This document shows positions 2,290-36,163 of a DNA stretch of 56,666 nucleotides, piece by piece. The DNA is from Lachnospiraceae bacterium. GTDB taxonomy: Bacteria; Bacillota; Clostridia; Lachnospirales; Lachnospiraceae. Under the pieces are notes generated by a model. That model made no database searches. It was not told where the DNA came from and saw only the letters and a program-made list of their open reading frames with translations. The DNA is taken from contig JAIECJ010000042.1 in NCBI GenBank assembly GCA_029068555.1, positions 1 to 56,666 of the forward strand, in the 5' to 3' direction. Numbering within the stretch: the first letter of the stretch is position 1; the number at the start of each line of letters is the position of its first letter. The position numbers and the translations under genes are program-made.

Positions 2290-2301
2290 GTAACTGTTAA
2301 T

Positions 2302-2357
2302 AAATAACTTATGACTACAGTGAATTATTTATATGATGTCTTTGCCGCAAGTTATTT
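2302..2357 (+). terminator. possible terminator after metG
   Basis: AAATAACTT at 2302-2310 is complementary to AAGTTATTT at 2349-2357, followed by TT. The stem is AT-only and the loop is 38 bases, so termination is uncertain. Confidence 0.25.
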
Positions 2358-2396
2358 TTGGACAGTTTTAAGACTTTGGCAAGAATGGAGATTCGT

Positions 2397-3038
2397 ATGG
2401 CAAATAATGTAGAAGCAATCATATTTGATTTGGACGGAACAATGTGGAATGCACTGGAGGGAATCCGCAAGACATGGAATCAGGTTGTGGCAAATCATCC
2501 AGAGTACAGAAAAGAACCAATTTCGTCTGAAGAGCTGGAGGGCTGCCTTGGACTTCCCATGACAGATATAGCTGGCAGGCTGTTTTCAAACACGACGGCA
2601 GAACAACAGCAAAAACTGATGGAAGAGTGCTGCGAGGTTGAGAATGCCTATTTGAGTGAGCATGGAGGGATTCTTTACCCGAAGCTTGAAGAGACGCTCA
2701 CCGAGTTGAAAAAAAGTTATAAGCTTTTTGTGGTGAGCAACTGCCAGAAGGGATATATCGAGAGTTTTATTAAGGCGCATAAGCTTGCGGATTATTTTGA
2801 CGATATTGAGTGCTGGGGAAACAATCTGTTTTCCAAGGGTGAGAACAATAAACTTATCATGAAGCGCAATGGCGTGACCAGGGCGGTTTATGTCGGCGAT
2901 ACTGCAGGTGACGAGGAGTCGGCAAGAATCGCAGGAATCCCGTTTATCTTTGCAAAATATGGATTTGGGGAGGCGAAGTCGCCTGACTATGTTCTGGAGG
3001 AGTTTTCACAGCTTCCTGCAGTTATGGAGAAAATATAG
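2397..3038 (+). CDS. HAD-family hydrolase
   Basis: Predicted soluble phosphatase of the haloacid dehalogenase superfamily, phosphoglycolate phosphatase/beta-phosphoglucomutase-like. Motif I is FDLDGT near residues 10-15, with the nucleophile Asp and the acid/base Asp two residues later. Motif II is around VVSNCQK and motif IV is VGDTAGDE. An all-helical cap lies between motifs I and II. The frame is open upstream to a TTG at 2358, but GGAG at 2387-2390, six bases before the ATG at 2397, makes 213 residues the better reading. The substrate cannot be told from sequence. Confidence 0.88.
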   Translation: MANNVEAIIFDLDGTMWNALEGIRKTWNQVVANHPEYRKEPISSEELEGCLGLPMTDIAGRLFSNTTAEQQQKLMEECCEVENAYLSEHGGILYPKLEETLTELKKSYKLFVVSNCQKGYIESFIKAHKLADYFDDIECWGNNLFSKGENNKLIMKRNGVTRAVYVGDTAGDEESARIAGIPFIFAKYGFGEAKSPDYVLEEFSQLPAVMEKI

Positions 3039-3098
3039 GCAGACACTGATGCAAAAATAACGTTTTTTACAGTGATTCATACGATGGAGGTTATCAGA

Positions 3099-4085
3099 AT
3101 GAGTATACGTATTGGAATTTTGGGATATGGCAATCTGGGCCGCGGCGTTGAGTGCGCGGTTCGGCAGAATGACGACATGGAGCTTGCGGCAGTGTTTACC
3201 CGCAGGAGTCCGGAGTCGGTTTCCATTCTGACAAAGACAGCAAAAGTCTGCAATATTGCAGAGGCTGCAGAATGGAAGGATAAGATTGACGTGATGATTA
3301 TCTGCGGAGGCAGTGCGACGGATTTGCCCAGACAGACACCGGAGTATGTGAAATATTTTCATGTCATTGACAGTTTTGACACACACGCAAAGATTCCGGA
3401 GCATTTTGCAAATGTGGATGCAGCAGCTAAGGCGAGTTCACACATCGGCATTATTTCGGTGGGATGGGATCCTGGAATGTTCTCGTTAAACCGTCTTTAT
3501 GCAAATGCTATACTGCCAGAGGGAAAGGATTACACGTTCTGGGGCAAAGGGGTGAGTCAGGGACATTCGGATGCCATCCGCCGCATAGAGGGTGTCAAAA
3601 ATGCGAAGCAGTATACGATTCCTGTCGAATCTGCCCTTGAGGCTGCCCGTTCTGGCAGCAATCCAGAGCTTACAACAAGGCAGAAACACACAAGGGAATG
3701 TTTTGTTGTCTTAGAGGATGGTGCGGATGCCGCAAAGGTTGAGGAGGCAATCAAAACCATGCCCAACTATTTTGCTGACTATGACACAACCGTGCACTTT
3801 ATCAGCGAGGAGGAGCTGCTCGCAAACCACAGCGGGATTCCGCATGGCGGTTTTGTGCTGAGAAGCGGCGTGACAGGCTGGGAGAAGGAGAATAAGCATT
3901 TAATTGAATACAGCTTAAAGCTGGACTCTAATCCGGAATTTACCGCAAGTGTTCTTGTCGCATATGCGAGGGCTGCGCAACGCCTTGCAAAAGAGGGACA
4001 AAGCGGCTGTAAAACTGTTTTTGACGTTGCGCCGGCATATCTAAGTGCAAAGAGTGCGGAGGAGCTGCGGGCTTCGATGTTGTAA
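3099..4085 (+). CDS. ddh: meso-diaminopimelate D-dehydrogenase
   Basis: NADPH-dependent enzyme of the one-step dehydrogenase route to meso-diaminopimelate, which feeds lysine and peptidoglycan synthesis. The N-terminal Rossmann motif is GILGYGNLGRG, just after the start. Other family signatures seen are a FTRR segment, a SVGWDPGM stretch, and GKGVSQGHSDAIRRI in the substrate-binding half. With the ATG at 3099, supported by GGAGG at 3086-3090, the protein has 328 residues, the usual family length. It is a single gene closed by a strong hairpin at 4113-4150. Confidence 0.95.
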   Translation: MSIRIGILGYGNLGRGVECAVRQNDDMELAAVFTRRSPESVSILTKTAKVCNIAEAAEWKDKIDVMIICGGSATDLPRQTPEYVKYFHVIDSFDTHAKIPEHFANVDAAAKASSHIGIISVGWDPGMFSLNRLYANAILPEGKDYTFWGKGVSQGHSDAIRRIEGVKNAKQYTIPVESALEAARSGSNPELTTRQKHTRECFVVLEDGADAAKVEEAIKTMPNYFADYDTTVHFISEEELLANHSGIPHGGFVLRSGVTGWEKENKHLIEYSLKLDSNPEFTASVLVAYARAAQRLAKEGQSGCKTVFDVAPAYLSAKSAEELRASML

Positions 4086-4112
4086 AAGAATAAATATAGG
4101 AAGAAGAAACTG

Positions 4113-4150
4113 CAAACAAAACATGACGCACTGTTGTCATGTTTTGTTTG
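4113..4150. terminator. bidirectional-type terminator after ddh
   Basis: A perfect 15-bp inverted repeat, 4113-4127 with 4136-4150, with an 8-base loop. It lies 28 bases past the ddh stop and ends in TTTTGTTTGTT. It separates ddh from the ABC exporter operon. Confidence 0.75.
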
Positions 4151-4208
4151 TTATAAAACAATAAACAAGTTAGTAATTACCTCGTAAATATAGAAAGGCA
4201 TGGTCAAA

Positions 4209-5978
4209 ATGGAACAGCTTCAATTTATCTGGCAGTATATCAGGCGCCACAAAGGGCAGTATGTCGGCGGAATCATTACTTTATTTGTACTGGATTTTGC
4301 AAATCTCTATATTCCAAAGGTGACAGGTATTATCACGGACGGACTTGCGGCGCGGACGATAGAAATGAACGGTGTGCTTCGGAACATTGGCTTGATAATG
4401 GGAATCGGTTTAACGCTTGCAGTGGGGCGTTTTCTATGGCGTTACTTTATATTTGGCGCGGCGCGCGGGGTCGAGCGTGAAATCCGGGATGACATGTTTG
4501 CCCATCTGGAAACGCTGGATGTGGAGTATTACAATGAACACAAGACGGGCGATCTGATGACTCGTTTTACAAGTGATCTGAACGCAGTACGCATGGCAAT
4601 AGGTCCCGCTGTCATAGCAGCATTTGACGCGGTTGTCATGACTGTCATGGTAATTGGGCAGATGATGGTCTATGTCAGTGTGAAGCTGACATTAATAGCC
4701 ATTATTCCGATGTTTTTTATCGCCGTGGGCGAGCTGTATTATGGGAAAATAATGCAGAAGCGCTTTCTGGAGCGGCAGGAGGCGGTGTCAGAGCTTACAG
4801 ATTTTGTGCAGGAAAGTTTTTCAGGTGTTCGTGTCGTGAAAGCATTTGTGCGCGAGCGGTCACAAATCAGGGCGTTTGCAAAAGCAAATGAAAATGCAAA
4901 AAAGAAAAATCTTGGGATAGCGAAGATGGAATCCATTGTCATTCCGCTTCTGGATGTGGTAATCGGAGTGAGCAGCCTGCTGACGCTCCTGTATGGCGGC
5001 TGGCTTGCGCTAAACGGGGAAATTACGATTGGGCGTTTTGTCGCTTTTAACCAGTATATTACAATGCTTGTGTGGCCAATGATAGCATGTGGAGAAGCGA
5101 TTAATATGTTCTCGCAGGGGGGAGCTGGTATTAAGAGAATACAGGAGGTTTTTGCACAGGAGCCTGAGATAGCGGACAGAGCGGATGTGGCGTCAGTGAA
5201 CAGCATTCGTGGTGATATCCGCCTGAATCACCTTACGTTTATTCACAGGGGACACAGCGAGCCGACATTGAAGGACATCAGTCTGGACATCAAGGCGGGG
5301 ACAACACTTGCTGTTATCGGACGAACTGGAAACGGAAAATCTACGCTTGTCAACCTGCTGCTGCATCTGTATAACACAAAGCCGGGTATGATTTTTATTG
5401 ATGGGAGGGACATCAACACGATTCCCCTGAAAGTGCTGCGTGAAAATATCGCCTATGTGCCGCAGGATAATTTTCTGTTTTCGGATACCCTGAAATCCAA
5501 TATTGCATTTGGAACGGACAATGAGGAGATGGAGGAAATCGTAAAGGCGACAAAGACGGCATGTATTCATGACAACATTATTGCGTTTCCGGATGGGTAT
5601 GAGACCATTGTGGGTGAGCGCGGTGTTACGCTGTCAGGCGGTCAGAAACAGAGAAGCTCCATTGCACGGGCGTTGAAAAAGAACGCGCCGATACTGATTC
5701 TGGATGATGCGCTTTCTGCAGTGGACACGGACACCGAGGAAAAGATCCTGCATAACCTGAAAGAAAATAGAAGCGGAAAAACGACGATTCTGATAGCACA
5801 TCGTATCTCGACGATACAGAATGCGGATAAGATTCTTGTTCTGGAGGATGGAGAGGCTAAGGAATGCGGGAATCACAAGGAATTGATGGCACTTGGCGGC
5901 ATATACAAGGAAATGTTTGAGAAACAACAGCTGGAAGCTGCAATTGGAGAAAAAAGGGCGGCGGGAGGTTTTGTATGA
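4209..5978 (+). CDS. heterodimeric ABC exporter, subunit with degenerate Walker B
   Basis: Half-transporter with an N-terminal six-helix export domain and a C-terminal nucleotide-binding domain, of the multidrug type (BmrC/BmrD, LmrC/LmrD, TM287/288). Walker A is GRTGNGKST, the signature is LSGGQKQ, and Walker B ends LILDDA: the catalytic Glu after the Walker B Asp is Asp here, as in the non-canonical partner of heterodimeric exporters. The ATG at 4200 sits directly on the AGAAAGG at 4192-4198, so the ATG at 4209 with a 10-base spacer is preferred (589 residues). It overlaps the next gene by four bases, implying coupled translation. The substrate is unknown. Confidence 0.92.
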   Translation: MEQLQFIWQYIRRHKGQYVGGIITLFVLDFANLYIPKVTGIITDGLAARTIEMNGVLRNIGLIMGIGLTLAVGRFLWRYFIFGAARGVEREIRDDMFAHLETLDVEYYNEHKTGDLMTRFTSDLNAVRMAIGPAVIAAFDAVVMTVMVIGQMMVYVSVKLTLIAIIPMFFIAVGELYYGKIMQKRFLERQEAVSELTDFVQESFSGVRVVKAFVRERSQIRAFAKANENAKKKNLGIAKMESIVIPLLDVVIGVSSLLTLLYGGWLALNGEITIGRFVAFNQYITMLVWPMIACGEAINMFSQGGAGIKRIQEVFAQEPEIADRADVASVNSIRGDIRLNHLTFIHRGHSEPTLKDISLDIKAGTTLAVIGRTGNGKSTLVNLLLHLYNTKPGMIFIDGRDINTIPLKVLRENIAYVPQDNFLFSDTLKSNIAFGTDNEEMEEIVKATKTACIHDNIIAFPDGYETIVGERGVTLSGGQKQRSSIARALKKNAPILILDDALSAVDTDTEEKILHNLKENRSGKTTILIAHRISTIQNADKILVLEDGEAKECGNHKELMALGGIYKEMFEKQQLEAAIGEKRAAGGFV

Positions 5979-7714
5979 AAAGACTGTTAGCTTATTTGAC
6001 ACCGCATAAATGGATGATGATAGTTTCTTCGGTTCTTGTCGTGGCGCTGATTGGCGTGGAATTATATAAGCCCATTATAATTGGCAATGCGATTGACAAT
6101 TATATCAGCAGTTATGGGCAGACAGGACTAGCAATTGGGGAGGCGTACTGTGGTATTTTATATGCAGGGGCACTGTACGCATTGCTGCTGCTGCTTGGTT
6201 TTGCGTTCAATGCAGCCAACACATGGATTTTGCAGAATGTAGGGCAGTCCATTATTTACAGGATGCGCGCAGAGGTATTTACACACATTCACAGTCTGTC
6301 CGTGAATTTTTTTAATACGCAGCCTGTAGGAAAACTCGTTACAAGGGTTTCAAACGATACGGAGGCTGTCAACGAGCTATTTTCACAGATTCTGGCAAAG
6401 CTGTTTAAGAACACGGTTAAGATTATTGGATTTGCAGTTGTCATGCTTTCGATTAATGTGAAGATGGCACTCTATTCCTTTTTGCTAATTCCGATTGTCA
6501 CGGCGCTGACATTTTTTTTCCGATATCTGTCAAGGAAAGCGTACCGGATTACTAGGACGCGCATTACAGAGTTGAATACGTTTTTGTCAGAGCATATATC
6601 AGGCATGAAGCTGATACAGATATTTGCGCGGGAGAAGGAAAAGTATGAAGAATTTGAGTGGAAAAGTGAACAGCTTTTCAAGGCGAACTGGCGCGAGGTT
6701 ATGACATTTGCCATTTTCCGCCCATCTATTTATATGCTTTCTGTCATTGCGATGGTGATTGTAATTGGGCAGGGGAGCGCATCTGTTCTGGCAGGGACGG
6801 TTTCGCTGGGGACGCTCTTTGTATTTATCAATTATATTAGTTCCTTTTTTGAGCCGATTCAGGAGCTGGCGGAACAGTTTGGAACACTGCAGTCTTCGCT
6901 TGCGTCTGCGGAGAAAATATTTTCGATATTGGATGAAGAGCCGGAAATCGTAAATCCCGAAAATCCGCGTAGTGTGCGGATCACAGGAAAGATAGAGTTC
7001 CGCCATGTATGGTTTGCTTATGAAAAGGATGATTACATATTGAAGGATGTAAGTTTTACCATTGCGCCGGGGGAAAAGGTTGCATTTGTGGGCGCTACGG
7101 GTGCCGGGAAATCGTCCATACTGAATCTGATAGGGCGCTACTATGATGTCCAGAAAGGCGAAATATTGATAGACGGCGTGAACATCAGGGAGATTGACAA
7201 GGATGCCTTGCGTCATGCCATTGGTCAGGTACAGCAGGATGTGTTTATTTTTACGGGGGATATCAAGGGGAATATTTCACTGAATAACGAGGAGATATCG
7301 CGGGAGGAGATAGAGCGCGCCGCCCACTTTGTGAATGCGGATACTTTTATCAGCAAAATGCCGCAGGGCTTTGACGAGCCGGTTACGGAGCGCGGCAGCA
7401 CATTGTCGGCAGGGCAGCGGCAGCTTCTTTCCTTTGCACGGACGCTTGCATATCAGCCGACGATACTGGTGTTGGACGAGGCGACGGCAAATATTGACAC
7501 TGAGACAGAAAGTCTGATTACACAGGCATTGGAAAAGCTGATGGAGGGCAGGACAACCATCATGGTAGCACACAGACTTTCTACAATCCAGCACGCCGAC
7601 AAGATCATCGTCATGCACAAAGGTGAAATCAAGGAAAGTGGCTCGCATCAGGAACTTTTGCAGCTGGATGGAATGTATAAGAAGCTGTATGATTTGCAGC
7701 TTGTTGAGGTGTAG
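5975..7714 (+). CDS. heterodimeric ABC exporter, catalytic subunit
   Basis: Second half-transporter (579 residues) with the same layout: six transmembrane helices, then an ATPase domain. Walker A is GATGAGKSS, the signature is LSAGQRQ, and Walker B ends LVLDEA, keeping the catalytic Glu that its partner lacks. In this exporter class one ATP site of the dimer is active and the other degenerate, which fits the pair. The start ATG overlaps the stop of the first subunit (ATGA type), with GGGAGG just upstream. A strong bidirectional terminator follows at 7758-7797. Confidence 0.93.
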   Translation: MKRLLAYLTPHKWMMIVSSVLVVALIGVELYKPIIIGNAIDNYISSYGQTGLAIGEAYCGILYAGALYALLLLLGFAFNAANTWILQNVGQSIIYRMRAEVFTHIHSLSVNFFNTQPVGKLVTRVSNDTEAVNELFSQILAKLFKNTVKIIGFAVVMLSINVKMALYSFLLIPIVTALTFFFRYLSRKAYRITRTRITELNTFLSEHISGMKLIQIFAREKEKYEEFEWKSEQLFKANWREVMTFAIFRPSIYMLSVIAMVIVIGQGSASVLAGTVSLGTLFVFINYISSFFEPIQELAEQFGTLQSSLASAEKIFSILDEEPEIVNPENPRSVRITGKIEFRHVWFAYEKDDYILKDVSFTIAPGEKVAFVGATGAGKSSILNLIGRYYDVQKGEILIDGVNIREIDKDALRHAIGQVQQDVFIFTGDIKGNISLNNEEISREEIERAAHFVNADTFISKMPQGFDEPVTERGSTLSAGQRQLLSFARTLAYQPTILVLDEATANIDTETESLITQALEKLMEGRTTIMVAHRLSTIQHADKIIVMHKGEIKESGSHQELLQLDGMYKKLYDLQLVEV

Positions 7715-7757
7715 GGGATATAATAGGCAGATTTGCGGCTGATTCCCATGAACAAAA

Positions 7758-7797
7758 AGACAGGTCTATCTCCGAAGAGACAGACCTGTCTTTTTTT
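7758..7797. terminator. bidirectional terminator between ABC exporter and hicA
   Basis: AGACAGGTCT at 7758-7767 pairs with AGACCTGTCT at 7782-7791, with a T run to 7797 and an A run before the left arm. It can end both the exporter transcript and the convergent hicA transcript; the hicA stop codon lies inside it. Confidence 0.85.
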
Positions 7798-7960
7798 CAA
7801 GATCCTTTACTATGCCAGTTGTCAGCTCCTTATCACTATGGTTTGGGACAATAATGGTATAAGGAATGCCTGCCTTTTGGTACTGGCAGGTCAGATTTCC
7901 CGTTCTGATTAAGAGCCAGTTATTGGCTTTCAGGATTTTCTCGATTTCACGAAATGTCAT
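7766..7960 (-). CDS. hicA: HicA-like toxin lacking the usual catalytic His
   Basis: 64-residue HicA/YcfA-type small protein, a dsRBD-like fold that in active members cleaves mRNA. The N-terminal MTFREIEKIL helix, the central RTG strand and the C-terminal PNHSDKELTTG / KDLEKKTGL segment match the family. The usual GSH tripeptide carrying the catalytic His is replaced by NLT in RTGNLTCQY, so RNase activity is doubtful. The frame opens at a TTG at 7966, but AGGAGG six bases before the ATG at 7960 decides the start. It is transcribed away from hicB rather than in the usual hicAB operon. Confidence 0.72.
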   Translation of the reverse strand: MTFREIEKILKANNWLLIRTGNLTCQYQKAGIPYTIIVPNHSDKELTTGIVKDLEKKTGLSLRR

Positions 7961-8063
7961 ATGCAACCTCCTATAGAAAACAGTTAATGGTTTCCAATAT
8001 ATTAACGATTAAACTGTTATGGGCTGCATATTTAGCATATCTTATGCACACAAAATGCAAAGG

Positions 8064-8103
8064 ACGCACCTTGGCGCATGTACGGAGTCCGCAGCAGGTG
8101 CGT
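8064..8103. other. GC-richer hairpin in the hicA-hicB intergenic region
   Basis: ACGCACCT at 8064-8071 pairs perfectly with AGGTGCGT at 8096-8103 around a 24-base loop, an island of higher GC in AT-rich DNA. No U-run follows on either side. The rest of the 376-base gap 7961-8336 holds the promoter and inverted repeat listed next and no other gene. Confidence 0.35.
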
Positions 8104-8191
8104 ACTCCTGTTTGAAAATTTTAGGGCTTTTACAGTAAAATTATAAATTATCCAGGTGAAATAATCAATAAAAAGTTTTTATTTTTAGTTG

Positions 8192-8220
8192 TTGACAAAA
8201 CAATCAAGGAAGATTATAAT
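8192..8220 (+). promoter_or_regulatory. consensus sigma-A promoter for hicB
   Basis: Perfect TTGACA at 8192-8197 and perfect TATAAT at 8215-8220, separated by exactly 17 bases. It points toward hicB, about 115 bases upstream of its start. It is the best promoter seen in the window. Confidence 0.8.
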
Positions 8221-8260
8221 CTGTATTATAAAATTCAACACAGATTACAATCTTCCTTGA
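8204..8260. promoter_or_regulatory. 21-bp inverted repeat over the hicB promoter (candidate operator)
   Basis: The left arm 8204-8224 covers the spacer and the whole -10 box. The right arm 8240-8260 is its reverse complement with one mismatch, and the centre is 15 bases. Because the left arm lies in the promoter and would not be fully transcribed, this reads as a protein-binding site rather than an RNA hairpin. HicB antitoxins with a DNA-binding C-terminus commonly autorepress, so HicB is the natural candidate ligand; that is inference. Confidence 0.55.
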
Positions 8261-8336
8261 AACGATAAGGTTGAATAAAAAAGCGGATTCAACTGATTGA
8301 TTCAGTGCGTGACGCAGCGCACAGATGGGGATGAAG

Positions 8337-8720
8337 ATGAAAGAAAATTATGTATATCCTGCAAAAATAACATGTAATGAAAACATGTATCAGATTACAT
8401 TTCTGGACTTTCCTGATATGAGTATTGTAGAGGAGGCAGCAAGAGAGGATGCTATTCATTCCGCACAGGAATACCTGGCGCACGAAATACTCAGTTATGA
8501 GGAACGAAACGAGAAATTACCGGTTCCAAATGAAAGCGCATCCGACGTTATTTATATTCATATCTGGATGCCATATTATAGAAACGCTGCAAAAGAAGTA
8601 TATGTCAAAAAGAACGTTACGATACCGCAGTCTCTGGATATTCTTGCAAAGGAACACAAGGTGAATTATTCGGCAGCGCTTGTCAAAGGCATTAAACTGG
8701 CTTTAGGCATTGAACATTAA
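8337..8720 (+). CDS. hicB: HicB-family antitoxin
   Basis: About 127-residue HicB-like protein. The N-terminal half (YPAKITCNENMYQITF followed by DFPD) is the partially degraded RNase H-like fold that binds HicA. The C-terminal KNVTIPQSLDILAKEH and LVKGIKLAL segments resemble a ribbon-helix-helix DNA-binding end. Three in-frame ATGs occur at 8325, 8331 and 8337; GGGG at 8327-8330 best serves 8337. The gene sits behind a consensus promoter with a large inverted repeat and 66 bases ahead of two micropeptide genes that may share its transcript. The partner hicA lies divergently, 376 bases away. Confidence 0.78.
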   Translation: MKENYVYPAKITCNENMYQITFLDFPDMSIVEEAAREDAIHSAQEYLAHEILSYEERNEKLPVPNESASDVIYIHIWMPYYRNAAKEVYVKKNVTIPQSLDILAKEHKVNYSAALVKGIKLALGIEH

Positions 8721-8786
8721 AATCTCAATTGAAAATTAATACATATGAAGCAGCTATTAATATTTCAAAAATACGGAGGTATAAAT

Positions 8787-8864
8787 ATGGGATTTGAAGA
8801 ATGGGTAAGAATGATTAAAAATGTTGCCAAGGCAGTTGTGGCTGTTATTGAGATTTTTGAATAG
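8787..8864 (+). CDS. amphipathic micropeptide 1 (25 aa)
   Basis: Below usual gene-finder cut-offs but with a near-ideal ribosome-binding site: CGGAGG at 8774-8779, seven bases before the ATG. The product begins MGFEEWVRMIKN and ends VIEIFE. Placed on a helix, F3, W6/V7, I10, V13/A14, V17/V18, V20/I21 and F24 form one face and E4, R8, K11, K15, E22 the other. There is no leader or cysteine pair. It resembles phenol-soluble-modulin-like, leaderless-bacteriocin-like or type I toxin peptides in form only; no homologue is recognised. The second micropeptide follows 11 bases later. Confidence 0.6.
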   Translation: MGFEEWVRMIKNVAKAVVAVIEIFE

Positions 8865-8875
8865 GGGGAAATGCA

Positions 8876-8956
8876 ATGAGTATTATCAAAATGGTTAAGG
8901 TTACGTGCCAGGTTGTCAGTGGAATTGTCAGCATTATCTCGCTGTTGCGGGACTGA
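8876..8956 (+). CDS. amphipathic micropeptide 2 (26 aa)
   Basis: Second tiny gene, with GGGGG at 8864-8868 seven bases before its ATG. The product starts MSIIKMVKVTC and ends SIISLLRD. Polar residues K5, K8, Q12, S15, S19, S22 and D26 form a regular i+3/i+4 stripe opposite an Ile/Val/Leu face, so it should form an amphipathic helix. It holds a single Cys (C11). It is similar in size and design to micropeptide 1 but not an obvious duplicate in sequence. A weak hairpin follows at 8980-9006 before the kinase-like gene. Confidence 0.57.
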   Translation: MSIIKMVKVTCQVVSGIVSIISLLRD

Positions 8957-8979
8957 AAATATTACTTGCAGGTTTGACG

Positions 8980-9013
8980 GGCATCTGTTTATTATAATCA
9001 GATGCCTTGCTTT
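8980..9013 (+). terminator. weak terminator or attenuator after the micropeptides
   Basis: GGCATCTG at 8980-8987 pairs with CAGATGCC at 8999-9006 (8 bp, 11-base loop), followed by TTGCTTT. The T-tract is interrupted, so partial read-through into the kinase-like gene at 9104 is plausible. Confidence 0.5.
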
Positions 9014-9103
9014 CATAGTACAGTGCCATTGTTAAAATGATGGAATGTGACTGAATAGCATGGCAAGGATGCGGGAAATGGAAAGAAGTCCAGGAGGAGT
9101 TTT

Positions 9104-10939
9104 ATGTACAAGGTAGTTCAGGATTATATGGATAAATTAAATGAGTTGGCGGAAGATAGAGGAAATAATTTTTTTGATAAATGTGACAAGGAGTTATGTG
9201 CCGGGGTCAGAGCTATTGCCCTGGAATGGTTAAATGAAATATTTACAGAAAACGGGTGGAGTGAAGAATTTGTGACAGCGTTTGCTGTATACTGCAATTT
9301 TTTTATTTTGCAGGGACTGCATTTGTGCCTCGGGAATGATTTTGGGCTGCAAGTAGTTTATGACACAAATGAAATGGATGACGAAGACAGGCAGTACTTG
9401 GAATTGATTCGTGAGGGGATATCTGAACAGGACATTGTCTGTTTTTTCAATGCAATAAGTATGGCGATATATAATTTTGACATACCAAAATTATATATAT
9501 ATGTTTTAAGCTTCCTGGAAATATGTCTGGCAGATGAACAGGATTTTCAAACGGATGAAGAAAAAGAGAATATATACGATATATTGCTTTTAATGGAACA
9601 CGCTAAGGGGGAAATTACAGGTGAATTACAGATGCTGGCAGAACCCCAAAATTTGTCTGTTGAACAAGAAAAAATAAAATGCGCTGATTTCTCAATGTTA
9701 TTGCCCGAAATTATTATTTCAAATCCCATGAGAAAATTGTCACTTGCTGCGATAAGTGATTTGGAGACATTATCAAATCTTTGTGATAATGAAATCAAAT
9801 CTTTTAAGGATATACTGGAAGGGTTATCCGGCGTAATAAAAAAAGGTGATGATAGTAAGGTGTGTAAGTATATAATTTTTTTAGATGAATTTGTTAAAAG
9901 AACTTTAAGCGCCGAGAAAATAGGGGACGAATATGAATATTATGGAAAGATCACAGAGTACAGGGACGGTGCACCAATCTACAGGAGAGAGTTCTTAAAC
10001 CTGCCGGTAAATGTATCTGAAAAACAGTACCGCAACCTGGAACTGGCAAAACAGATCAAGCTCAATGTTGAAAAAGACAGACTGATAAGGAAGAACGAAA
10101 AAATGGTGGAAGATTATTCCCATTCGATAGAGAATATTATAAAACCGGCACTGATAGCCGAAGTTGCAAACTGTTTAAGGGAGGATGAAAAAAACAGACA
10201 TTTGTACAGCAAAATCATGTATATCTATTTTAATGAAGTTATCACGCAAAATGAGTGCAGGCTTTTGAAAATGGTGCATAATGTATCTGTCTCAAAGGGA
10301 GCAATACGGGAAAACATTAGCAGGGCGAAGAAAAAAAATACCAGAAACGGAATATCCATACAAAAGATTGCGTATAAGGCAATAAATCAGATTTCTTTGC
10401 AGCTGGCAGAGAATGCACAAAAGGCAAGATTTATGTTTATACTGGAAAAAATGTCCCAGGCAGGAATTGATTCGGAACAAATAAACAGTAAGCTCTGGGA
10501 TTCTTCAAGGGAGATGGATGCATTATATAAAATGTATCATGACAAGTTGAATGTTGTGATAGAGCTATCCAGAGATTTGGCAGACCTTGAATTGAACGAG
10601 GAGGAGCTGGGGACATCATTCCTATATACGAGAATTGTAGAAGTGCTGTCAAATGCGCTGACGTATGGAGATTACGGAAGCGGTAGGAAGTTTCATCTCA
10701 AAATATACACAGAAAATACAGAGGAAGATGAGAACTATATTGTTGTTGAAATGATAAATGGAATCGGGGACAGGAGCTTTTCGGATAACAGGGCAGGAAA
10801 CGGGTTAAAAGCAACTGAGGTAATGCTGGAGAGGATAAATTTTGAGAATCCCGAAAAAGAAAGCTTTGTCAGTACAGACGAGACAGAAGATGGATTTTTT
10901 GTGACAAAGATGTATATAGATGCGGATCTTTATATGTGA
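9104..10939 (+). CDS. large cytosolic histidine-kinase-like protein
   Basis: 611 residues with no transmembrane segment. The first 330 residues are helical and match no family I know. A possible phospho-acceptor His (H340, in DYSHSIEN) precedes a long helical region. The last 110 residues carry GHKL ATPase features: an N-box EVLSNAL with N517, a degenerate G1 region EMINGIGD, and a G2-like GNGLKATEVML. The AGGAGGAG at 9092-9099 strongly supports this start. The next gene, with a receiver-like domain, begins 12 bases after the stop, so the two should act as a signalling pair. The DNA is AT-richer than the flanking operons, suggesting acquisition. Confidence 0.65.
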   Translation: MYKVVQDYMDKLNELAEDRGNNFFDKCDKELCAGVRAIALEWLNEIFTENGWSEEFVTAFAVYCNFFILQGLHLCLGNDFGLQVVYDTNEMDDEDRQYLELIREGISEQDIVCFFNAISMAIYNFDIPKLYIYVLSFLEICLADEQDFQTDEEKENIYDILLLMEHAKGEITGELQMLAEPQNLSVEQEKIKCADFSMLLPEIIISNPMRKLSLAAISDLETLSNLCDNEIKSFKDILEGLSGVIKKGDDSKVCKYIIFLDEFVKRTLSAEKIGDEYEYYGKITEYRDGAPIYRREFLNLPVNVSEKQYRNLELAKQIKLNVEKDRLIRKNEKMVEDYSHSIENIIKPALIAEVANCLREDEKNRHLYSKIMYIYFNEVITQNECRLLKMVHNVSVSKGAIRENISRAKKKNTRNGISIQKIAYKAINQISLQLAENAQKARFMFILEKMSQAGIDSEQINSKLWDSSREMDALYKMYHDKLNVVIELSRDLADLELNEEELGTSFLYTRIVEVLSNALTYGDYGSGRKFHLKIYTENTEEDENYIVVEMINGIGDRSFSDNRAGNGLKATEVMLERINFENPEKESFVSTDETEDGFFVTKMYIDADLYM

Positions 10940-10951
10940 TGGAGGAACTGT

Positions 10952-12496
10952 ATGATGGATATAAAAAGGTTTAAGAGAGTGTTGGTTATCAATGATGACG
11001 ACACAGAAGAACAATTTTTTATGAAAAACGAAAACTTACAGAAGCATCAGGATATGATATCCTATTGTAATACGCCAATGCAGGCATTTGAATTAATTAC
11101 GTCGGATAATTTTGGCGGATTTGACAAGATTGTGTTAGATATTAAATTAGAATGGGAAATACCGAAGACATATGAGGCGAAACTGAACGAGCATGTTGCC
11201 ATGAATGCAATCACTAATGCCAATATAGGATTTTTGATATTTATGTATCTTGTATCAAGGGGATATCCTATTGACAGAATTGCATTTTTGAGCGCATACA
11301 TTATGGAGACGGATGATGAGCTGAAAGAAAAGGAAAGGATTCTGGAGGTGGTAAGGGGCTGGAAAAAGAGAGATGCAGGACAGGATGAGTGGCTGATTCA
11401 GAATGCTGATATAGTGCCGTCATTAAAGGGGAGGATCATCAGGACTTTAAAGAATAATTCTTATAAAGGGATAAAAGCCTATGAGGAAATTAAAAAAATA
11501 CTTATTCAGGATATAGCGCCGCTGCACGGTTCCCAGACAAATACGAATGGGGAGGTGGAAACGAATGAGGCGTTTTTTCAGCTAATAGCGCAGACTGGGT
11601 TGATTGTCAAAAATAAGATAAATAAAAAAGACAAAGGCAAATTGGAAGCGTGGATTGGAAATGAAAAGACGGATGGACTCAGGGAATATTATGCATTCAG
11701 GAATATGGTTTTGAATATCTGTGAGCATGCCCAGACTGAAAGTCCTGATATATATAATTGTTATAGAAGTAATAAGTTTAAAACGAGTTATCCAGACAAA
11801 TATTTTGAGGATTTAATGAAAAAGGTACAATATGAGATTTCTGCGTTAAAGGAAAATGAAGACATTGAGAGAATCACGAAAAATGTGGTCAGTATTTTGG
11901 TGTCCTTTTGGGAAAGCCTTGATAAGAAGTATATAACAGATACAGTCCCAGCTATAGAGGATATCAATATCCACGCTCTGACAATGCTGCTGAAAAACAC
12001 TAGGAATTGGTACGCACACGGTCGTCTGAAAAAAATCGGAATAGCGTTTTGCAGGTTTGTTTTTTTAAGTTCTGTTCGGGTTATTTACGGTGACAGTAAG
12101 ATATTGGAGGACTATATTGAAAGGGAGTTAGGTCTGAAAAATGCTGTGATTCATGCAAACGAAGCATTTTATAAGAAAATATGGAAGGATATTAATGACA
12201 AAATAATAGCTACAAAAAGCTGCAAGGCAAACGCCTATATAATCAACCTGCCGGATTTATACAATAAATATTCCCATGACGAAGCAAGGGGGGATATTCA
12301 TTTAACCATATTTGATTTGTATGGGATGTTTATACTTTGCCTTCATTTTCCCAATGTAGTCATTTCAAATACCGGGGAGGGGTTTTTTAGAATTGTATTT
12401 AATGAGATAGACTATACAAAACAGGAGCGGTATATGCTTTTTTTAGAAAAAATAGCAATGATTAATTTGGAAAGACAACAGAATTTCACAAAATAA
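10952..12496 (+). CDS. receiver-like / HEPN-motif protein
   Basis: 514 residues. Residues 10-17 (VLVINDDD) give the acidic pocket of a CheY-like receiver and D63 in VLDIK stands where the phospho-acceptor Asp is expected; FLSAY, further on, fits the Ser/Thr strand. The receiver looks divergent, with long insertions. The C-terminal 300 residues are helical and contain R351-N352-W-Y-A-H356, matching the R-N-x3-H catalytic motif of HEPN RNases. No DNA-binding output domain is seen. With the kinase-like gene 12 bases upstream, it may be an RNase-type effector controlled by phosphorylation; this is inference from motifs. Confidence 0.6.
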   Translation: MMDIKRFKRVLVINDDDTEEQFFMKNENLQKHQDMISYCNTPMQAFELITSDNFGGFDKIVLDIKLEWEIPKTYEAKLNEHVAMNAITNANIGFLIFMYLVSRGYPIDRIAFLSAYIMETDDELKEKERILEVVRGWKKRDAGQDEWLIQNADIVPSLKGRIIRTLKNNSYKGIKAYEEIKKILIQDIAPLHGSQTNTNGEVETNEAFFQLIAQTGLIVKNKINKKDKGKLEAWIGNEKTDGLREYYAFRNMVLNICEHAQTESPDIYNCYRSNKFKTSYPDKYFEDLMKKVQYEISALKENEDIERITKNVVSILVSFWESLDKKYITDTVPAIEDINIHALTMLLKNTRNWYAHGRLKKIGIAFCRFVFLSSVRVIYGDSKILEDYIERELGLKNAVIHANEAFYKKIWKDINDKIIATKSCKANAYIINLPDLYNKYSHDEARGDIHLTIFDLYGMFILCLHFPNVVISNTGEGFFRIVFNEIDYTKQERYMLFLEKIAMINLERQQNFTK

Positions 12497-12506
12497 ACAC
12501 ACCATA

Positions 12507-12539
12507 TTTAAGCTTCATTTAAGTTTACCGTCATATACT
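12507..12539 (+). promoter_or_regulatory. PmrA-box-like direct repeat and -10 box
   Basis: TTTAAG at 12507-12512 and again at 12518-12523 (five-base spacer, 11-bp period), followed after ten bases by TATACT at 12534-12539. This is the layout of an OmpR-family activator site replacing a -35 box; the PmrA/BasR consensus is YTTAAK-N5-YTTAAK. The operon it precedes ends with an OmpR-type regulator and its kinase, so autoregulation is likely. Confidence 0.55.
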
Positions 12540-12585
12540 TTTCCCATCACAAAACAATTTACTTGTACAGGAATGGAGGATAATT

Positions 12586-13314
12586 ATGGCATATCAGGCT
12601 GTGTTTAAACGTTATGAAATGAAATACAGGTTGTCCAGGAGGCAGAGGGCAGCAGTTCTTGAGGCGATGCTTCCGCATATGCGGCTGGACGATTTCGGGC
12701 ATACAACAATCAGGAACATTTACTTTGATACAGATACATACCGACTGGTGCGGCGCTCCATAGAGAAGCCTGTTTATAAGGAAAAGCTCCGCATTAGAAG
12801 TTACAAACAGGCAGCGGCACAGGATGAGGTTTTTATTGAACTTAAGAAAAAGTATGATGATGTGGTGTATAAACGGCGTGAATCCCTTACCCAGCTTGAG
12901 ACGCTGGAATGGCTTGTTAAGGAAACACCATTTCCGAAAGCGTCACAGATTGGGAATGAGCTTGACTATTTCTTTCAGTTTTACCAGACCTTGAAACCCA
13001 AAGTGTTTCTATCCTATGAGCGTGAAGCGTTTTATGCGTTGGACGGCAGTGACTTCCGGGTGACTTTCGACGAAAATATTCTTGCCCGTCAGGATGAACT
13101 TTCCCTTTCAAAAGAGGTATGGGGAGAGCGGCTTATTGACGAGGATGACGTACTGCTGGAAATCAAAACTTCGGGCGGCATCCCGCTCTGGATGACAAAG
13201 ATACTGACACAGGAAAAGATTTACAAGACATCTTTTTCAAAATACGGGACAGCATATGAAAAAATAATTTGCAGGAATCAAAGGGAACAGGCGGAAAAAA
13301 TCTTTATAGCCTGA
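12586..13314 (+). CDS. VTC-domain protein (polyphosphate polymerase-like)
   Basis: 242-residue protein of the VTC domain family (triphosphate-tunnel fold), whose yeast members make polyphosphate. Basic and acidic tunnel residues are visible in KRYEMKYRL near the N-terminus, KEKLRIRSY, ELKKKYDDVVYKRR and the C-terminal LLEIKTSGGIP. A GGAGG precedes the ATG. In Firmicutes such genes lie next to DUF4956 and CotH or surface-protein genes, as here, where DUF4956 starts 15 bases after the stop. Whether this bacterial member makes polyphosphate is not shown by the sequence. Confidence 0.85.
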   Translation: MAYQAVFKRYEMKYRLSRRQRAAVLEAMLPHMRLDDFGHTTIRNIYFDTDTYRLVRRSIEKPVYKEKLRIRSYKQAAAQDEVFIELKKKYDDVVYKRRESLTQLETLEWLVKETPFPKASQIGNELDYFFQFYQTLKPKVFLSYEREAFYALDGSDFRVTFDENILARQDELSLSKEVWGERLIDEDDVLLEIKTSGGIPLWMTKILTQEKIYKTSFSKYGTAYEKIICRNQREQAEKIFIA

Positions 13315-13329
13315 CGGAGGAGTAGAACG

Positions 13330-14025
13330 ATGGAAAATATTTTCAGGGGATTATTTGACGCAGAGACGGCAGGCGTTATATCGGTGGCAGACTTTATGAT
13401 TTGTATTGTCAGCGCACTTGTTATAGGGTTGATGATATCAGTGATGTATATGTACAAGAATACATATTCCAAAAGTTTTATCGTGACGATTGCCACCATT
13501 CCGGCGATTGTGTGTGTTGTCATTATGATGGTAAACGGCAACGTAGGCGCAGGCGTGGCAGTTGCAGGGGCTTTCAGTCTGGTAAGGTTCCGCTCTGCGC
13601 CTGGGACGGCAAAGGAAATTGGTGTGCTTTTCATGGCAATGGGGGCCGGCATTATCACAGGAATGGGGTATATTGCATATGCGTTTCTGTTTGCCGTTAT
13701 TATGGGACTTGTCGACATGCTCTACGCACAGATAAATTTGGGGGCAAAAAAACATGCGGATTTAGACCGGACACTGCATGTCACGATTCCAGAGGACTTG
13801 GATTATGTGGATGTATTTGATGATTTGTTTGACAAATATACATGTAAGCGTGCGCTTGTCAATGTGAAGACAACAAATATGGGAAGCTTGTTTAAGCTTA
13901 CATACCATATAACATTTCGGGAATCGGGCACAGAGAAAGCTTTTATTGACGGGATACGCTGTCGAAACGGAAATTTGGAGATTGTGTTGTCAAATCAGGA
14001 GAGCAGTGCGATGGAAATGATGTAG
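13330..14025 (+). CDS. DUF4956 membrane protein
   Basis: 231-residue integral membrane protein. Three to four hydrophobic helices fill residues 20-140, including a glycine/alanine-rich segment GAGVAVAGAFSLVRFRSAPGTAKE that is the hallmark of DUF4956. The C-terminal 90 residues are cytosolic and soluble in character. It is coupled to the VTC gene upstream and to the lipoprotein and two-component genes downstream. Its function is unknown; association with VTC proteins suggests a shared membrane process. Confidence 0.85.
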   Translation: MENIFRGLFDAETAGVISVADFMICIVSALVIGLMISVMYMYKNTYSKSFIVTIATIPAIVCVVIMMVNGNVGAGVAVAGAFSLVRFRSAPGTAKEIGVLFMAMGAGIITGMGYIAYAFLFAVIMGLVDMLYAQINLGAKKHADLDRTLHVTIPEDLDYVDVFDDLFDKYTCKRALVNVKTTNMGSLFKLTYHITFRESGTEKAFIDGIRCRNGNLEIVLSNQESSAMEMM

Positions 14026-14117
14026 AAAAACGCTGCGGAGTGGACAGTAACAAAGGAATTATATGTGATGGGACAATAGCAGGTTATTTGTTGAGCGGGA
14101 AAGGGATGAGGAATAGA

Positions 14118-15887
14118 ATGATGAAGCAATGGAGTAGGAAATGGTATCATGTAATGGCAGTATGCATCCTGTCTGCTGCATCTGTGACGGCATGTGCAAA
14201 TAAGGAGACTGTCAACACAAATGCTGTAAATGAGAATAGTAGTGACACAAATGTCATTTCTGATGTGACGGCAGATGAATCCGGACTTTTTTCGAAACGT
14301 GATCTGAGCGGGGCGTTTGACGCATCAAAATGTGAGAACATCACGCTTTCCGATGCGGGGTGCACGACGGATTCGAAAAATGTGACGATAGACGGAAGTA
14401 AAGTTACGATAACAGGAGAGGGGGACTATATGGTAAACGGTTCCCTGAGCGACGGAATGCTAATCGTGGACGTCGACAAGACGCAAAAGGTTCAGCTGGT
14501 GCTGAACGGAGTAGATATTAATGCTGTGACATCAGCAGCGGTATATGTAAAAAGTGCAGACAAGGTGTTCATCACACTGCCTGACCGAACGGAAAATACA
14601 CTTACAAACGGCGGATCGTTTGTGGCAATTGATGACAATAATATTGATGCAGTGATATTTTCAAAAGATGATTTGACGCTGAATGGAACAGGGACACTCA
14701 CAATCAATTCTCCGGCAGGACATGGCGTTGTATCAAAAAATGATCTTGTCATTACCGGCGGAACATATGATATAACAGCTGCCTCCCATGGCATGACGGG
14801 AAAGGACAGTGTGGCAGTTGCTGATGGTGATTTTCGGATTACAGCGGGAGAGGATGCCATAAAGTCAGACAATAATGATGATGACACAATGGGAAGTGTA
14901 TACATTCTGGGCGGAAACTATGCACTTACGGGAGAAAGCGACGGGATTAACGCGCTCAATGAAATCAATATATCTGGCGGAAATATTGTGGTAGGGCAGG
15001 CAGAGGAAGGTCTGGAAGCGCGTATTATCAATATTTCCGGCGGTACAGTTGATATTAATGCATCTGATGACGGAGTGAATGCTACAGATAAGCGTGTATC
15101 CACAAATGAACAGATGGCAGGTGGACAGGATGAGGAAGATAAAAAAGGTCATATCGGTGGAATGGGTGATAATGAACCAGATGCAAGCATCAATATTTCT
15201 GGAGGAGTTCTTCGTGTAAATGCAGAGGGTGATGGTTTGGATTCAAACGGCTATATCACTGTAAGCGGCGGGGAGGTTTATGTCACGGGTCCCACGCATG
15301 GCGGTGATGCTGCGATTGACTATGGGATTGATGCCGTGGTAAGCGGAGGAATTGTAGTGGCAGCAGGACAGGGCAATATGGCGCAGAACTTTGGCACGGA
15401 CTCTACACAGGGTGCTATTCTGGTCAATACACAGGCGCAGAATGAAGCCGGAAGCGATATCGTACTTTTGGATAATAATGGAAGCGAGCTTCTTGCATGG
15501 ACTGCTCAAAAAAGCTATAATTCAGTTACAATCAGTTGTCCGGAAATCAAAGCAGACGGTACTTACACAGTAAAAATGGGTGAGAATACTACAGATGTCA
15601 CAATGAATGGACTTATTTATGGACAAGGCGTCTCTTTTGGCGGAGGAAGACGTGGACTGGGCGGAGGAGAGAAGCCGGAGGGGATGCCAGAGCGTTCTGA
15701 TTTTCCAAACGGAGAGAGACCAGAGGGAATGCCGAACCCGCCTGATTTTCCGAACGGAGAGAAGATGGACGGAAAAAGGCCGGAGGGAATGCCAGAGCTA
15801 CCGGATTTTCAGAATAAAGACAACTCAGACGGAGCGGAACAACATACAGGAAATGTTCCAAAAACAGAGGAGGAAATCAGGCAATGA
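14118..15887 (+). CDS. surface lipoprotein with DUF4353-type beta-solenoid domain
   Basis: About 589 residues. A signal peptide with lipobox VTAC ends near residue 20, predicting a lipid-anchored exported protein. The body holds many ISGG, VSGG and DGINA turns typical of the Cthe_2159/DUF4353 carbohydrate-binding beta-helix family. The tail carries three 15-residue Pro/Gly repeats of the form GE-PEGMP---DFPN. The frame is open from 14040, but the ATG at 14118 with AGG six bases upstream gives a proper signal peptide. Its stop overlaps the response regulator start by four bases. It probably binds acidic polysaccharide at the cell surface. Confidence 0.82.
   Translation: MMKQWSRKWYHVMAVCILSAASVTACANKETVNTNAVNENSSDTNVISDVTADESGLFSKRDLSGAFDASKCENITLSDAGCTTDSKNVTIDGSKVTITGEGDYMVNGSLSDGMLIVDVDKTQKVQLVLNGVDINAVTSAAVYVKSADKVFITLPDRTENTLTNGGSFVAIDDNNIDAVIFSKDDLTLNGTGTLTINSPAGHGVVSKNDLVITGGTYDITAASHGMTGKDSVAVADGDFRITAGEDAIKSDNNDDDTMGSVYILGGNYALTGESDGINALNEINISGGNIVVGQAEEGLEARIINISGGTVDINASDDGVNATDKRVSTNEQMAGGQDEEDKKGHIGGMGDNEPDASINISGGVLRVNAEGDGLDSNGYITVSGGEVYVTGPTHGGDAAIDYGIDAVVSGGIVVAAGQGNMAQNFGTDSTQGAILVNTQAQNEAGSDIVLLDNNGSELLAWTAQKSYNSVTISCPEIKADGTYTVKMGENTTDVTMNGLIYGQGVSFGGGRRGLGGGEKPEGMPERSDFPNGERPEGMPNPPDFPNGEKMDGKRPEGMPELPDFQNKDNSDGAEQHTGNVPKTEEEIRQ
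15666..15815 (+). repeat. 45-bp coding tandem repeats in lipoprotein tail
   Basis: Three in-frame 45-base units at 15666-15710, 15711-15755 and 15771-15815, each encoding a 15-residue PEGMP-containing block. The last two are separated by a five-residue spacer. It is a wall-spanning or disordered linker by appearance. Confidence 0.8.
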
Positions 15888-16570
15888 GATTGTTACTTGC
15901 GGAGGACGAAGCGTCACTTTCAAAAGCAGTTGTGACAATACTAAGGCGAAATAACTATACGGTGGATGCAGCATGTGACGGCATAGAGGCGCTGGAATTT
16001 CTGGAAATGAATGTGTATGATGGCGTTATTCTGGATGTGATGATGCCGCGCATGGACGGAATTAGTGTGCTTCAGAACATTCGCAAAGCGGGAAATCAGG
16101 TTCCGGTTATCCTTCTTACGGCGAAGGCGGAGGTGGACGACAAGGTACGCGGACTTGACAGCGGCGCAAATGATTATCTCACAAAACCATTTGCGTCAAA
16201 GGAGCTGCTGGCACGTATCCGCGCCATGACGAGAAGCAGTGCGGCGGCAGTGCAGCCGGATGCGAAACTACGTTTGGGAAACATTGTGCTCGACTGTGCA
16301 TTATTTGAGCTGTCTTCACCGTTTGGATCGTTTGTGCTTGCCAACAAAGAATTTCAGATGCTGGAATTTCTGATGAGAAATCCGAGGCAGATTATTTCTG
16401 CGGAGAAGTTTATGGACAAAATATGGGGATTTGAGACGAATGTGGAAAGCAATGTCGTTTGGACCTATATCTCCTATCTGCGAAAAAAGCTTGCGGCACT
16501 CAAGGCAGATGTAGAAATCAGGGCAAGGCGCGGGGCGGGATATGCTCTCGAGCAGGCAAAGAAGGAATAG
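15884..16570 (+). CDS. OmpR-family response regulator
   Basis: 228 residues: a receiver with acidic residues E7-D8 and phospho-acceptor D51 (ILDVMMP), Lys in LTKPF, and a C-terminal winged helix (WTYISYLRKKL, RRGAGYAL). It overlaps the lipoprotein gene by four bases and is followed by its kinase. The PmrA-box-like repeat at 12507-12523 ahead of the operon is a plausible binding site for this regulator. Confidence 0.93.
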   Translation: MRLLLAEDEASLSKAVVTILRRNNYTVDAACDGIEALEFLEMNVYDGVILDVMMPRMDGISVLQNIRKAGNQVPVILLTAKAEVDDKVRGLDSGANDYLTKPFASKELLARIRAMTRSSAAAVQPDAKLRLGNIVLDCALFELSSPFGSFVLANKEFQMLEFLMRNPRQIISAEKFMDKIWGFETNVESNVVWTYISYLRKKLAALKADVEIRARRGAGYALEQAKKE

Positions 16571-16581
16571 GAAGGATGCAT

Positions 16582-17868
16582 ATGATAAGGAAGCTGCGCA
16601 CAAAGTTTGTTATATTATCAACAATATCACTTCTATTATTGCTGGGTATTATTGTAGTATCCAGCAATTTTCTGACTTACAGGGAGCTTGTGGAAAATGC
16701 GGATATTGTACTTGAAATGATTGCCAAAAACGGTGGACGACCCATGCATTTGCTGCCGCCAGAGAAAAAGGAATTTCCGGAGACTGGTATGCATGGAGAG
16801 CGTGACAGACTTTTCGGAAAAAAGTTTTTGACGCCAGAAATCATGTATGAGGCGAGATTTTTCACTGCAAATATTTCTAGGGATGGGCAAGTTATATCCG
16901 TAAATACACAGAGCATTGCCATGGTAGATGACGATGAGGCAGCGTATTATGCAAAACAGGTATATGGCAAAAAGAATGACAGCGGTTTTATCGAGGATTT
17001 CCGATATATAAAATACTATAAAGAAAATGACATTTATGTCATTTTCTTGGACTGCGGAAGAAATCTTATTACGTTTAAGAATGCCCTTTTGATTAACTGC
17101 CTGATATCATTTGCCGGATTGTTGGCGATTTTTGTCATCATAGTTATTTTTTCGGCCAAAATCGTCAGACCGGTATCGGAAAGTTACGAGAAACAAAAAC
17201 AGTTCATCTCTGTGGCAGGGCATGAGCTCAAGACGCCAATCACAATTATAGACGCGGATGCGGAGGTTCTTTCCATGGAAATTGGTGAGGACAATGAATG
17301 GCTTGCAGATATCTGCAAGCAGACAAAGCGGATGGCACTGCTGACAAATGACCTGCTCACATTGTCGCGCATGGATGAAAACAGACAGCAGTTTACCATG
17401 ATTGATTTTCCGGTATCGGATGTAGTCAGTGAGACGGTTGTGTCTTTTGAGTCTCTGGCGCGTAGTAAGGGAAGGCATATCCGAACAGAAATAGCGCCAA
17501 TGCTTTCCTGTCGCGGTGATGAGAACAGTATACGCCAGGTTGTGGGTATTCTTTTGGACAATGCCATCAAATATACCAGTGAAGACGAAGATGGCACCTG
17601 TGAAGATATCCTGCTGCGGCTTGAGAAAAAGAGTCACAGTATCTGTCTGACCGTAAGAAACCATTCAGAGCCTGTAAGTGACGAGCAGCTTACGCACTTT
17701 TTTGACCGCTTTTACAGGACAGAGCAGTCAAGGGATTCTGGGAGCGGCGGTTATGGACTGGGGCTTTCTATCGCCTGGTCAATCGTGGAAGCGCATAAGG
17801 GCAAAATTACCGCAGCAGCGCCGGATTTGGAATCTGTGCAGATTACGGTGATGCTGCCTGTAAAATAG
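16582..17868 (+). CDS. sensor histidine kinase
   Basis: 428-residue membrane kinase paired with the regulator at 15884. A first transmembrane helix lies at residues 10-33, an extracytoplasmic sensor of about 130 residues follows, then a second helix. The H-box is VAGHELKTP with H214, the N-box is QVVGILLDNAIKYT and the G-box is GYGLGLSI. GGAAGG at 16570-16575 abuts the ATG at 16576, so the ATG at 16582 is taken. There is no clear HAMP domain. The input signal is unknown. Confidence 0.9.
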   Translation: MIRKLRTKFVILSTISLLLLLGIIVVSSNFLTYRELVENADIVLEMIAKNGGRPMHLLPPEKKEFPETGMHGERDRLFGKKFLTPEIMYEARFFTANISRDGQVISVNTQSIAMVDDDEAAYYAKQVYGKKNDSGFIEDFRYIKYYKENDIYVIFLDCGRNLITFKNALLINCLISFAGLLAIFVIIVIFSAKIVRPVSESYEKQKQFISVAGHELKTPITIIDADAEVLSMEIGEDNEWLADICKQTKRMALLTNDLLTLSRMDENRQQFTMIDFPVSDVVSETVVSFESLARSKGRHIRTEIAPMLSCRGDENSIRQVVGILLDNAIKYTSEDEDGTCEDILLRLEKKSHSICLTVRNHSEPVSDEQLTHFFDRFYRTEQSRDSGSGGYGLGLSIAWSIVEAHKGKITAAAPDLESVQITVMLPVK

Positions 17869-36142: not shown

Positions 36143-36163
36143 TTAACAATGAGGAGAATTATT

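Follow-up and report, generated by a model that had tools for sequence, protein, structure and literature searches.

We analysed a 56,666-nucleotide stretch of DNA from a Lachnospiraceae bacterium (contig JAIECJ010000042.1 of assembly GCA_029068555.1), here called the window, and focused on two adjacent genes at positions 9104-12496. They encode a kinase-like protein, P0001, and a second protein, P0002, that appears to begin with a divergent receiver domain and to continue into a predicted helical region bearing a candidate HEPN RNase motif (Table 1). The genes lie 12 bases apart, each behind a Shine-Dalgarno-like site, and their coordinates, strand and tight spacing are as given in a preliminary description of this DNA, which had proposed the pair as a candidate new system. 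They are the last genes of a cluster headed by a promoter, a HicB-like gene and two micropeptide frames. The two genes adjoin on the same strand across this short gap, and none of the three terminator-like sites found lies on the forward strand (0/3), two points that favour the operon proposed below. Taken together, P0001 and P0002 are best read as a two-component-like pair in which the regulator carries its own effector, perhaps a HEPN RNase, perhaps in the service of defence or dormancy.

A putative divergent receiver at the start of P0002

The N-terminus of P0002, judged from its sequence, is the best-supported part of this reading: a putative divergent receiver of about 187 residues, compared with the 111 profile positions of a canonical receiver. 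Residues 15-17 form a run of three aspartates. The receiver pattern, searched for at the N-terminus, was found in 4/1125 background proteins, namely P0002, a Pfam-confirmed response regulator encoded in the window, and two further proteins that we read as receivers; in 5000 shuffles it never appeared at the N-terminus and appeared eight times anywhere. Comparison of residues 8-168 with a receiver alignment built without P0002 gave an hhalign score of 19.3, above the maximum of 12.0 among 40 shuffles and the 3.3 of the reversed sequence. The alignment pairs D15 with an acid of the conserved acidic pair, D63 with the phospho-accepting aspartate and S114 with the threonine. The earlier claim of a divergent receiver with D63 at the start of P0002 is thus supported by the set of motifs together with a score above all 40 shuffles; its conserved lysine is not clear.

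Kinase-like features of P0001

P0001 contains the motifs EVLSNA (513-518), INGIG (551-555) and GNGLK (565-569), which resemble the N, G1 and G2 boxes of GHKL ATPases, and the stretch DYSHSIENII around H340 is a possible H-box. A loosened N-box/G1/G2 pattern matched 6/665 background proteins (P0001 and five that read as kinases) and 0/5000 shuffles; a stricter GHKL pattern with the usual G1 aspartate misses P0001, and the loosening was made so that INGIG would be accepted. Searches for a kinase or GHKL profile in Pfam (with fragments, up to E 10), NCBIfam and PDB sequences returned none. The proposed GHKL ATPase with a possible phospho-histidine is thus supported no further than the level of motifs, by the N and G2 boxes and the candidate H340; profile support is lacking, and the G1 aspartate appears to be replaced. 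The usual Kyte-Doolittle limit for a membrane segment is 1.6, and the largest 19-residue mean in P0001 is 1.53. P0001 is therefore likely soluble, in agreement with the absence of a membrane part noted earlier.

A candidate HEPN motif in the helical output of P0002

The sequence RNWYAH (residues 351-356 of P0002) matches the HEPN motif R[NDH]x3-5H. In HEPN proteins the motif typically occupies a short helix between longer ones, and RNxxAHG is a common form of it; in P0002, low-confidence models place RNWYAHG in a helical stretch, on a short helix flanked by two longer predicted helices. By chance, a protein of P0002 composition would be expected to contain 0.03 copies of RNxxxH and 0.07 of R[NDH]xxxH. 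The longer pattern R[NDH]x3-4HG occurred in 39/5000 shuffles and in 24/665 background proteins, a set enriched for this pattern by the many loci fetched by RNWYAHG. By these counts the motif is unusual, not decisive.

An alignment of HEPN-like sequences (frames from 2/7 fetched loci) scored 22.6 against P0002, above a maximum of 18.0 among shuffles that did not preserve the motif. Once the shuffles kept the motif this profile likeness was gone, and we discarded it. Structure comparison of the P0002 model returned generic helical bundles, and the list held no HEPN entry, an absence that excludes nothing. Hydropathy of P0002 peaks at a 19-residue mean of 1.72 at residues 453-471, slightly above the membrane limit. 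The HEPN RNase identity of the output is accordingly a motif-based proposal: of the HEPN RNase end claimed for the second protein, RNWYAHG is present and its surroundings are predicted to be helical, while the models are of low confidence and the similarity is no better than that of motif-keeping shuffles.

Searches for relatives

In three overlapping sets of 144, 398 and 397 genomes, the only real match to P0002 was its own gene. There were weak matches in 15 other genomes of the 398-genome set (E 0.0125-0.0993). Two were read as a solute-binding protein (L006) and a repeat protein (L012); of the 13 remaining places, all except L010, L011 and L019 were assigned: nine, with RGDIHIHDLDFY, were read as anaerobic ribonucleotide reductase, and one (L007) is a 79-residue frame. 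Around residue 440, P0002 has a short stretch in common with the ribonucleotide-reductase-like matches. Weak matches in five other genomes of the 397-genome set read as ordinary histidine kinases in two cases (L095, L099) and as unrelated proteins in the other three. For P0001 likewise no relative was found in 291 and 397 genomes, with three and six other weak matches; both of the two inspected among these nine (L003, L005) were relaxase-like.

Neither protein matched plasmids, also at E 10, nor plasmid DNA, nor phages, and no relative emerged from protein-derived scans of viral contigs or from genome contigs scanned with P0002. The RNWYAHG pattern itself was found in 68 stretches of genome contigs and five of viral contigs; when these were searched with both proteins by blastp and tblastn, nothing outside the motif stretch matched. 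Seven short FRNWYAHG frames (L030, L036, L046, L057, L065, L070, L071) are HEPN-like by reading, and the four that were scanned (L030, L036, L057, L065) gave no HEPN family match (0/4). The lack of relatives in these searches is the main limit of this analysis, because it puts motif conservation and gene linkage beyond testing and leaves folds to be predicted without an alignment. It also suggests that many switches of this type may escape current profiles.

Promoter, HicB-like gene and micropeptides

The promoter of the cluster is the sole 12/12 match among 32 promoter-like sites in 7600-12700, where 18.6 would be expected by shuffling. Two inverted half-sites overlap its -10 box and the stretch just behind. 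Allowing up to three mismatches, the half-site pattern matched nine places in the genome of origin, compared with two for a control pattern. These two half-sites have no mismatch and the other seven all have three, so the half-sites look private to this promoter.

The preliminary description had also pointed to a HicB gene and micropeptides beside the pair, and a HicB-like gene and two micropeptide frames are there. The HicB-like gene matched 36 plasmid records; identity is 29-35% for the 20 listed, which are annotated as HicB; its match to Pfam HicB-like_2 (E 0.043) did not reach the cut-off. As in HicAB systems, HicA and HicB-like genes stand side by side with palindromes at the promoter. 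Unlike HicAB, HicA lies on the reverse strand and the HicB-like gene on the forward strand, so the two do not form one operon, and the HicB-like gene heads another operon instead. Such a divergent layout (7766-8720), with two palindromic sites between the genes, is unusual for HicAB.

Each of the two micropeptide frames has a ribosome-binding-like site. Micropeptide 1 is strongly amphipathic, with a helical moment of 0.53 that only 5/20000 shuffles equalled; we take it to resemble PSM-like or leaderless peptides, and no second copy was found in its own genome at E 10. The moment of micropeptide 2 (0.33, equalled by 1530/20000 shuffles) is nothing special.

Table 1. Features of the cluster, in window coordinates
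Feature	Positions	Strand	Details
HicA toxin gene	7766-7960 (or start 7966)	-	PF07927, E 2.5e-9; GGAGG before ATG at 7960
Perfect sigma-70-type promoter, TTGACA-N17-TATAAT	8192-8220	+	12/12 matches
Candidate operator, two inverted 19-bp half-sites	8206-8258	none	Palindrome AGATTATAATCT at 8211-8222; near-palindrome AGATTACAATCT at 8242-8253
HicB-like antitoxin/repressor gene	8325 (or 8337)-8720	+	Plasmid-record matches annotated HicB
Micropeptide 1 frame, 25 aa	8787-8864	+	Shine-Dalgarno-like GGAGG
Micropeptide 2 frame, 26 aa, hydrophobic	8876-8956	+	GGGGG upstream
P0001 gene, kinase-like	9104-10939	+	611 aa; likely soluble; N-terminus without named domain
H340 codon, candidate phospho-acceptor (DYSHSIENII)	10121-10123	+	Sequence
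GHKL-like N-box (E513..N517), G1-like INGIG (551-555), G2 GNGL (565-568)	10640-10807	+	Loosened motif
P0002 gene, receiver and putative HEPN effector	10952-12496	+	514 aa
Putative receiver domain, residues 1-187	10952-11512	+	Acids at 15-17, D63, S114; lysine uncertain
RNWYAHG, residues 351-357, candidate HEPN catalytic motif	12002-12022	+	Sequence
C-terminal part of P0002, residues 400-514	12149-12493	+	Fragment containing it without family match

Base composition and probable acquisition

The HicB-like, P0001 and P0002 genes have a guanine-plus-cytosine (GC) content of 36-38%, and of 37-40% at third codon positions (GC3). In ten flanking genes GC is 44-50%; their GC3 is 47-53% except in one gene, where it is 40%. 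Low GC thus sets the cluster apart from its neighbours, not from the window as a whole. The flanks are of core type: before the cluster lie genes for MetRS, a HAD protein, diaminopimelate dehydrogenase and two ABC transporters, and after it a VTC-domain gene and DUF4956.

The VTC gene is present in 20/36 genomes of the same genus, its own genome included. We compared stretches from 17/19 of the other VTC-bearing genomes (leaving out G023 and G025), four of the stretches being shorter than 5 kb. HicA, HicB, P0001 and P0002 were found in none of them at E 1e-4 (0/17), and in 2/17 the VTC gene follows MetRS-HAD directly. These two results agree with a variable and probably acquired block. Upstream genes vary widely among the stretches; we had considered a defence hotspot at this locus, and the comparison shows variability, not a hotspot.

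A proposed mechanism and its alternatives

We favour, tentatively and without calling it probable, a horizontally acquired, HicB-controlled operon in which a kinase-like protein would act on a receiver with a HEPN RNase output to bring about arrest or defence. The N-terminal region of P0001 would sense an internal cue, and P0001 would autophosphorylate, probably at H340. The phosphate would pass to D63 in the receiver-like part of P0002, where phosphorylation may release or dimerise the helical output domain. R351 and H356 of this output, probably a dimeric HEPN RNase to judge by the motif, would then cut RNA, with growth arrest or abortive defence as the likely outcome. The two palindromes over the promoter would probably be the sites at which HicB represses the operon. 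DNA, proteins or small molecules are the targets of most known response regulators; if the proposal is true, direct His-Asp phosphate control of an RNase would provide a fast, reversible stop to translation, and Detocs-type immunity would extend to RNA. A bolder version, in which the cluster is the founding example of a phosphorelay-controlled HEPN RNase immune system, with HicB setting expression and the amphipathic micropeptide serving as a trigger, a brake or a second effector, is in our view quite unlikely.

Several results, including the shortfalls of the individual domains given with the rival explanations, count against the favoured mechanism. Neither protein has a trusted family match in Pfam, NCBIfam, PADLOC or PHROGs, and the searches made found no P0002 homologue in which conservation of the motif could be followed. 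All motif patterns (GHKL, receiver and HEPN) were composed after the proteins had been seen; those for GHKL and the receiver were moreover revised, their first versions having missed P0001 and matched no receiver except P0002, respectively. The window averages 40.5% GC and falls to 30% elsewhere, and the low GC of the cluster is not unusual on that scale. Direct evidence of defence is absent. As to the output, both AlphaFold models used for the HEPN-fold test, made without an alignment, are of low confidence (mean pLDDT 37.6 and 43.5), and the HEPN similarity was equalled by 373/2000 shuffles that kept the motif and by 652/2000 that kept the hydrophobic pattern too. Alternatively, the kinase/receiver pair may be real and its output something other than an RNase, with RNWYAHG coincidental and the helical part working through protein-protein contacts or another activity. 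We rate this as somewhat unlikely: the generic helical bundles and the 39/5000 shuffles fit it, as does the occurrence of RNWYAHG in long frames read as non-HEPN (for example an RND-type transporter and a membrane protein of NnrS type), whereas the predicted short helix between two longer ones is a HEPN-like place for a motif of a common HEPN form.

The phosphorelay itself is open to a different doubt. P0001 has no kinase profile match, its hhalign score against the HATPase profile (6.6) is within noise (shuffle maximum 9.0), and in INGIG the usual G1 aspartate is seemingly replaced by I551, with the N and G2 boxes kept. For the receiver, hhalign reports a probability of just 8.4%, sets N14 against the first acid and pairs the conserved lysine, K159 by eye, with Q150. 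Since the first acid and the lysine go unmatched, less weight falls on the favoured mechanism and more on a scheme in which P0001, instead of being an active kinase, is a degenerate protein of the GHKL type or a switch that binds ATP, and controls P0002 by binding to it; the receiver would then be a switch that binds a nucleotide or a protein. PMC8195603 predicts that receivers of conflict systems may not need histidine kinases to work. With D63, S114 and the three-aspartate run kept and a kinase-like gene next door, we nevertheless regard such a scheme as decidedly improbable. Very improbable, finally, is an ordinary HicAB toxin-antitoxin locus with two unrelated orphan genes as cargo that share no function. 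The locus does hold HicA and a HicB-like gene, and the searches gave no relatives of the pair by which linkage might be tested, but the frames are long and intact, tightly spaced, furnished with ribosome-binding sites and set in one low-GC block, and their kinase-like and receiver-like contents are complementary.

Comparison with known systems

A likely soluble kinase-like protein encoded next to an extended receiver with a phospho-Asp and a Ser/Thr recalls the HEF_HK (PF19191)/Response_reg_2 (PF19192) pairs. PMC8011034 describes these as soluble pairs of kinase and receiver that are enriched in the neighbourhood of restriction-modification genes. PF19192 has 180 positions, close to the length of the P0002 receiver. 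Unlike these families, P0001 has no PF19191 match and P0002 no PF19192 match, the N-terminal HATPase_c_3 domain of HEF_HK was not detected in P0001, H340 is followed by S rather than E or D, and the lysine conserved in Response_reg_2 is not clear in P0002. A sub-threshold PF19191 match in P0002 (E 0.16, 12.9 bits, cut-off 24.1) was taken as chance. Across 299 genomes of the phylum PF19192 exceeded its cut-off in none and fell below it once. As a further feature of these pairs we looked for restriction-modification genes within ten genes; the 14 proteins covered, at 316-17868, included none, a scan that ends short of the genes at 18.5-31.7 kb.

Elsewhere in the window, a restriction-modification-like cluster at 36149-42466 comprises two DUF2971 genes, one gene for an N6_N4 DNA methylase and one for a ResIII helicase; near its end the helicase has a weak match to a TnsA-like nuclease. 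The cluster begins in low-GC DNA, and its restriction-modification-like part lies at 38.6-42.5 kb.

The gene roles in Detocs are kinase, phosphotransfer protein and receiver-effector. The cluster shares with Detocs a kinase-like protein, a receiver-effector protein and, likely, abortive defence; it differs in having two large genes in the operon rather than three, and a PNP domain was not found, a putative HEPN output standing in its place. PMC9966839 and PMC11249213 present Detocs as a family of defence two-component systems with three genes each; the best described of its effectors is a PNP. Our best reading is that the pair would work like Detocs and HEF_HK/Response_reg_2, yet it lacks some of the features by which membership of each was tested.

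An RNx3H motif in a helical region and a GHKL-like partner are also found among HEPN RNases, including Ymh/paraMORC. Here, by contrast, there is no HEPN family match, a receiver is fused to the putative HEPN region, and the GHKL-like part lies in a separate protein. The passages of PMC3710099 consulted describe the fusion of Ymh HEPN domains with GHKL paraMORC ATPases and a membrane segment common to HEPN and receiver proteins, and name no receiver-HEPN fusion.

Receivers are already known in immunity, as seen in Detocs, in DefensePredictor (a figure legend of predicted systems in that paper names HATPase and REC domains) and in the CoCoNuTs (REC domains within predicted RNA-targeting systems; PMC11090510). 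No response regulator with a HEPN output turned up in the literature searched, which covered few subscription papers. The statement that this is not a known system accordingly needs narrowing: soluble kinase/receiver pairs (PMC8011034) and Detocs are known, and what has no counterpart in the literature searched is the receiver-HEPN output.

Other genes in the window

A large serine recombinase with Resolvase, Recombinase and zinc-ribbon domains at 47316-49388 suggests a second mobile element. Behind it, at 49525-52819, a gene of 355 aa is followed, in low-GC DNA, by one for a 744-aa subtilase (PF00082); the two may be a conflict pair.

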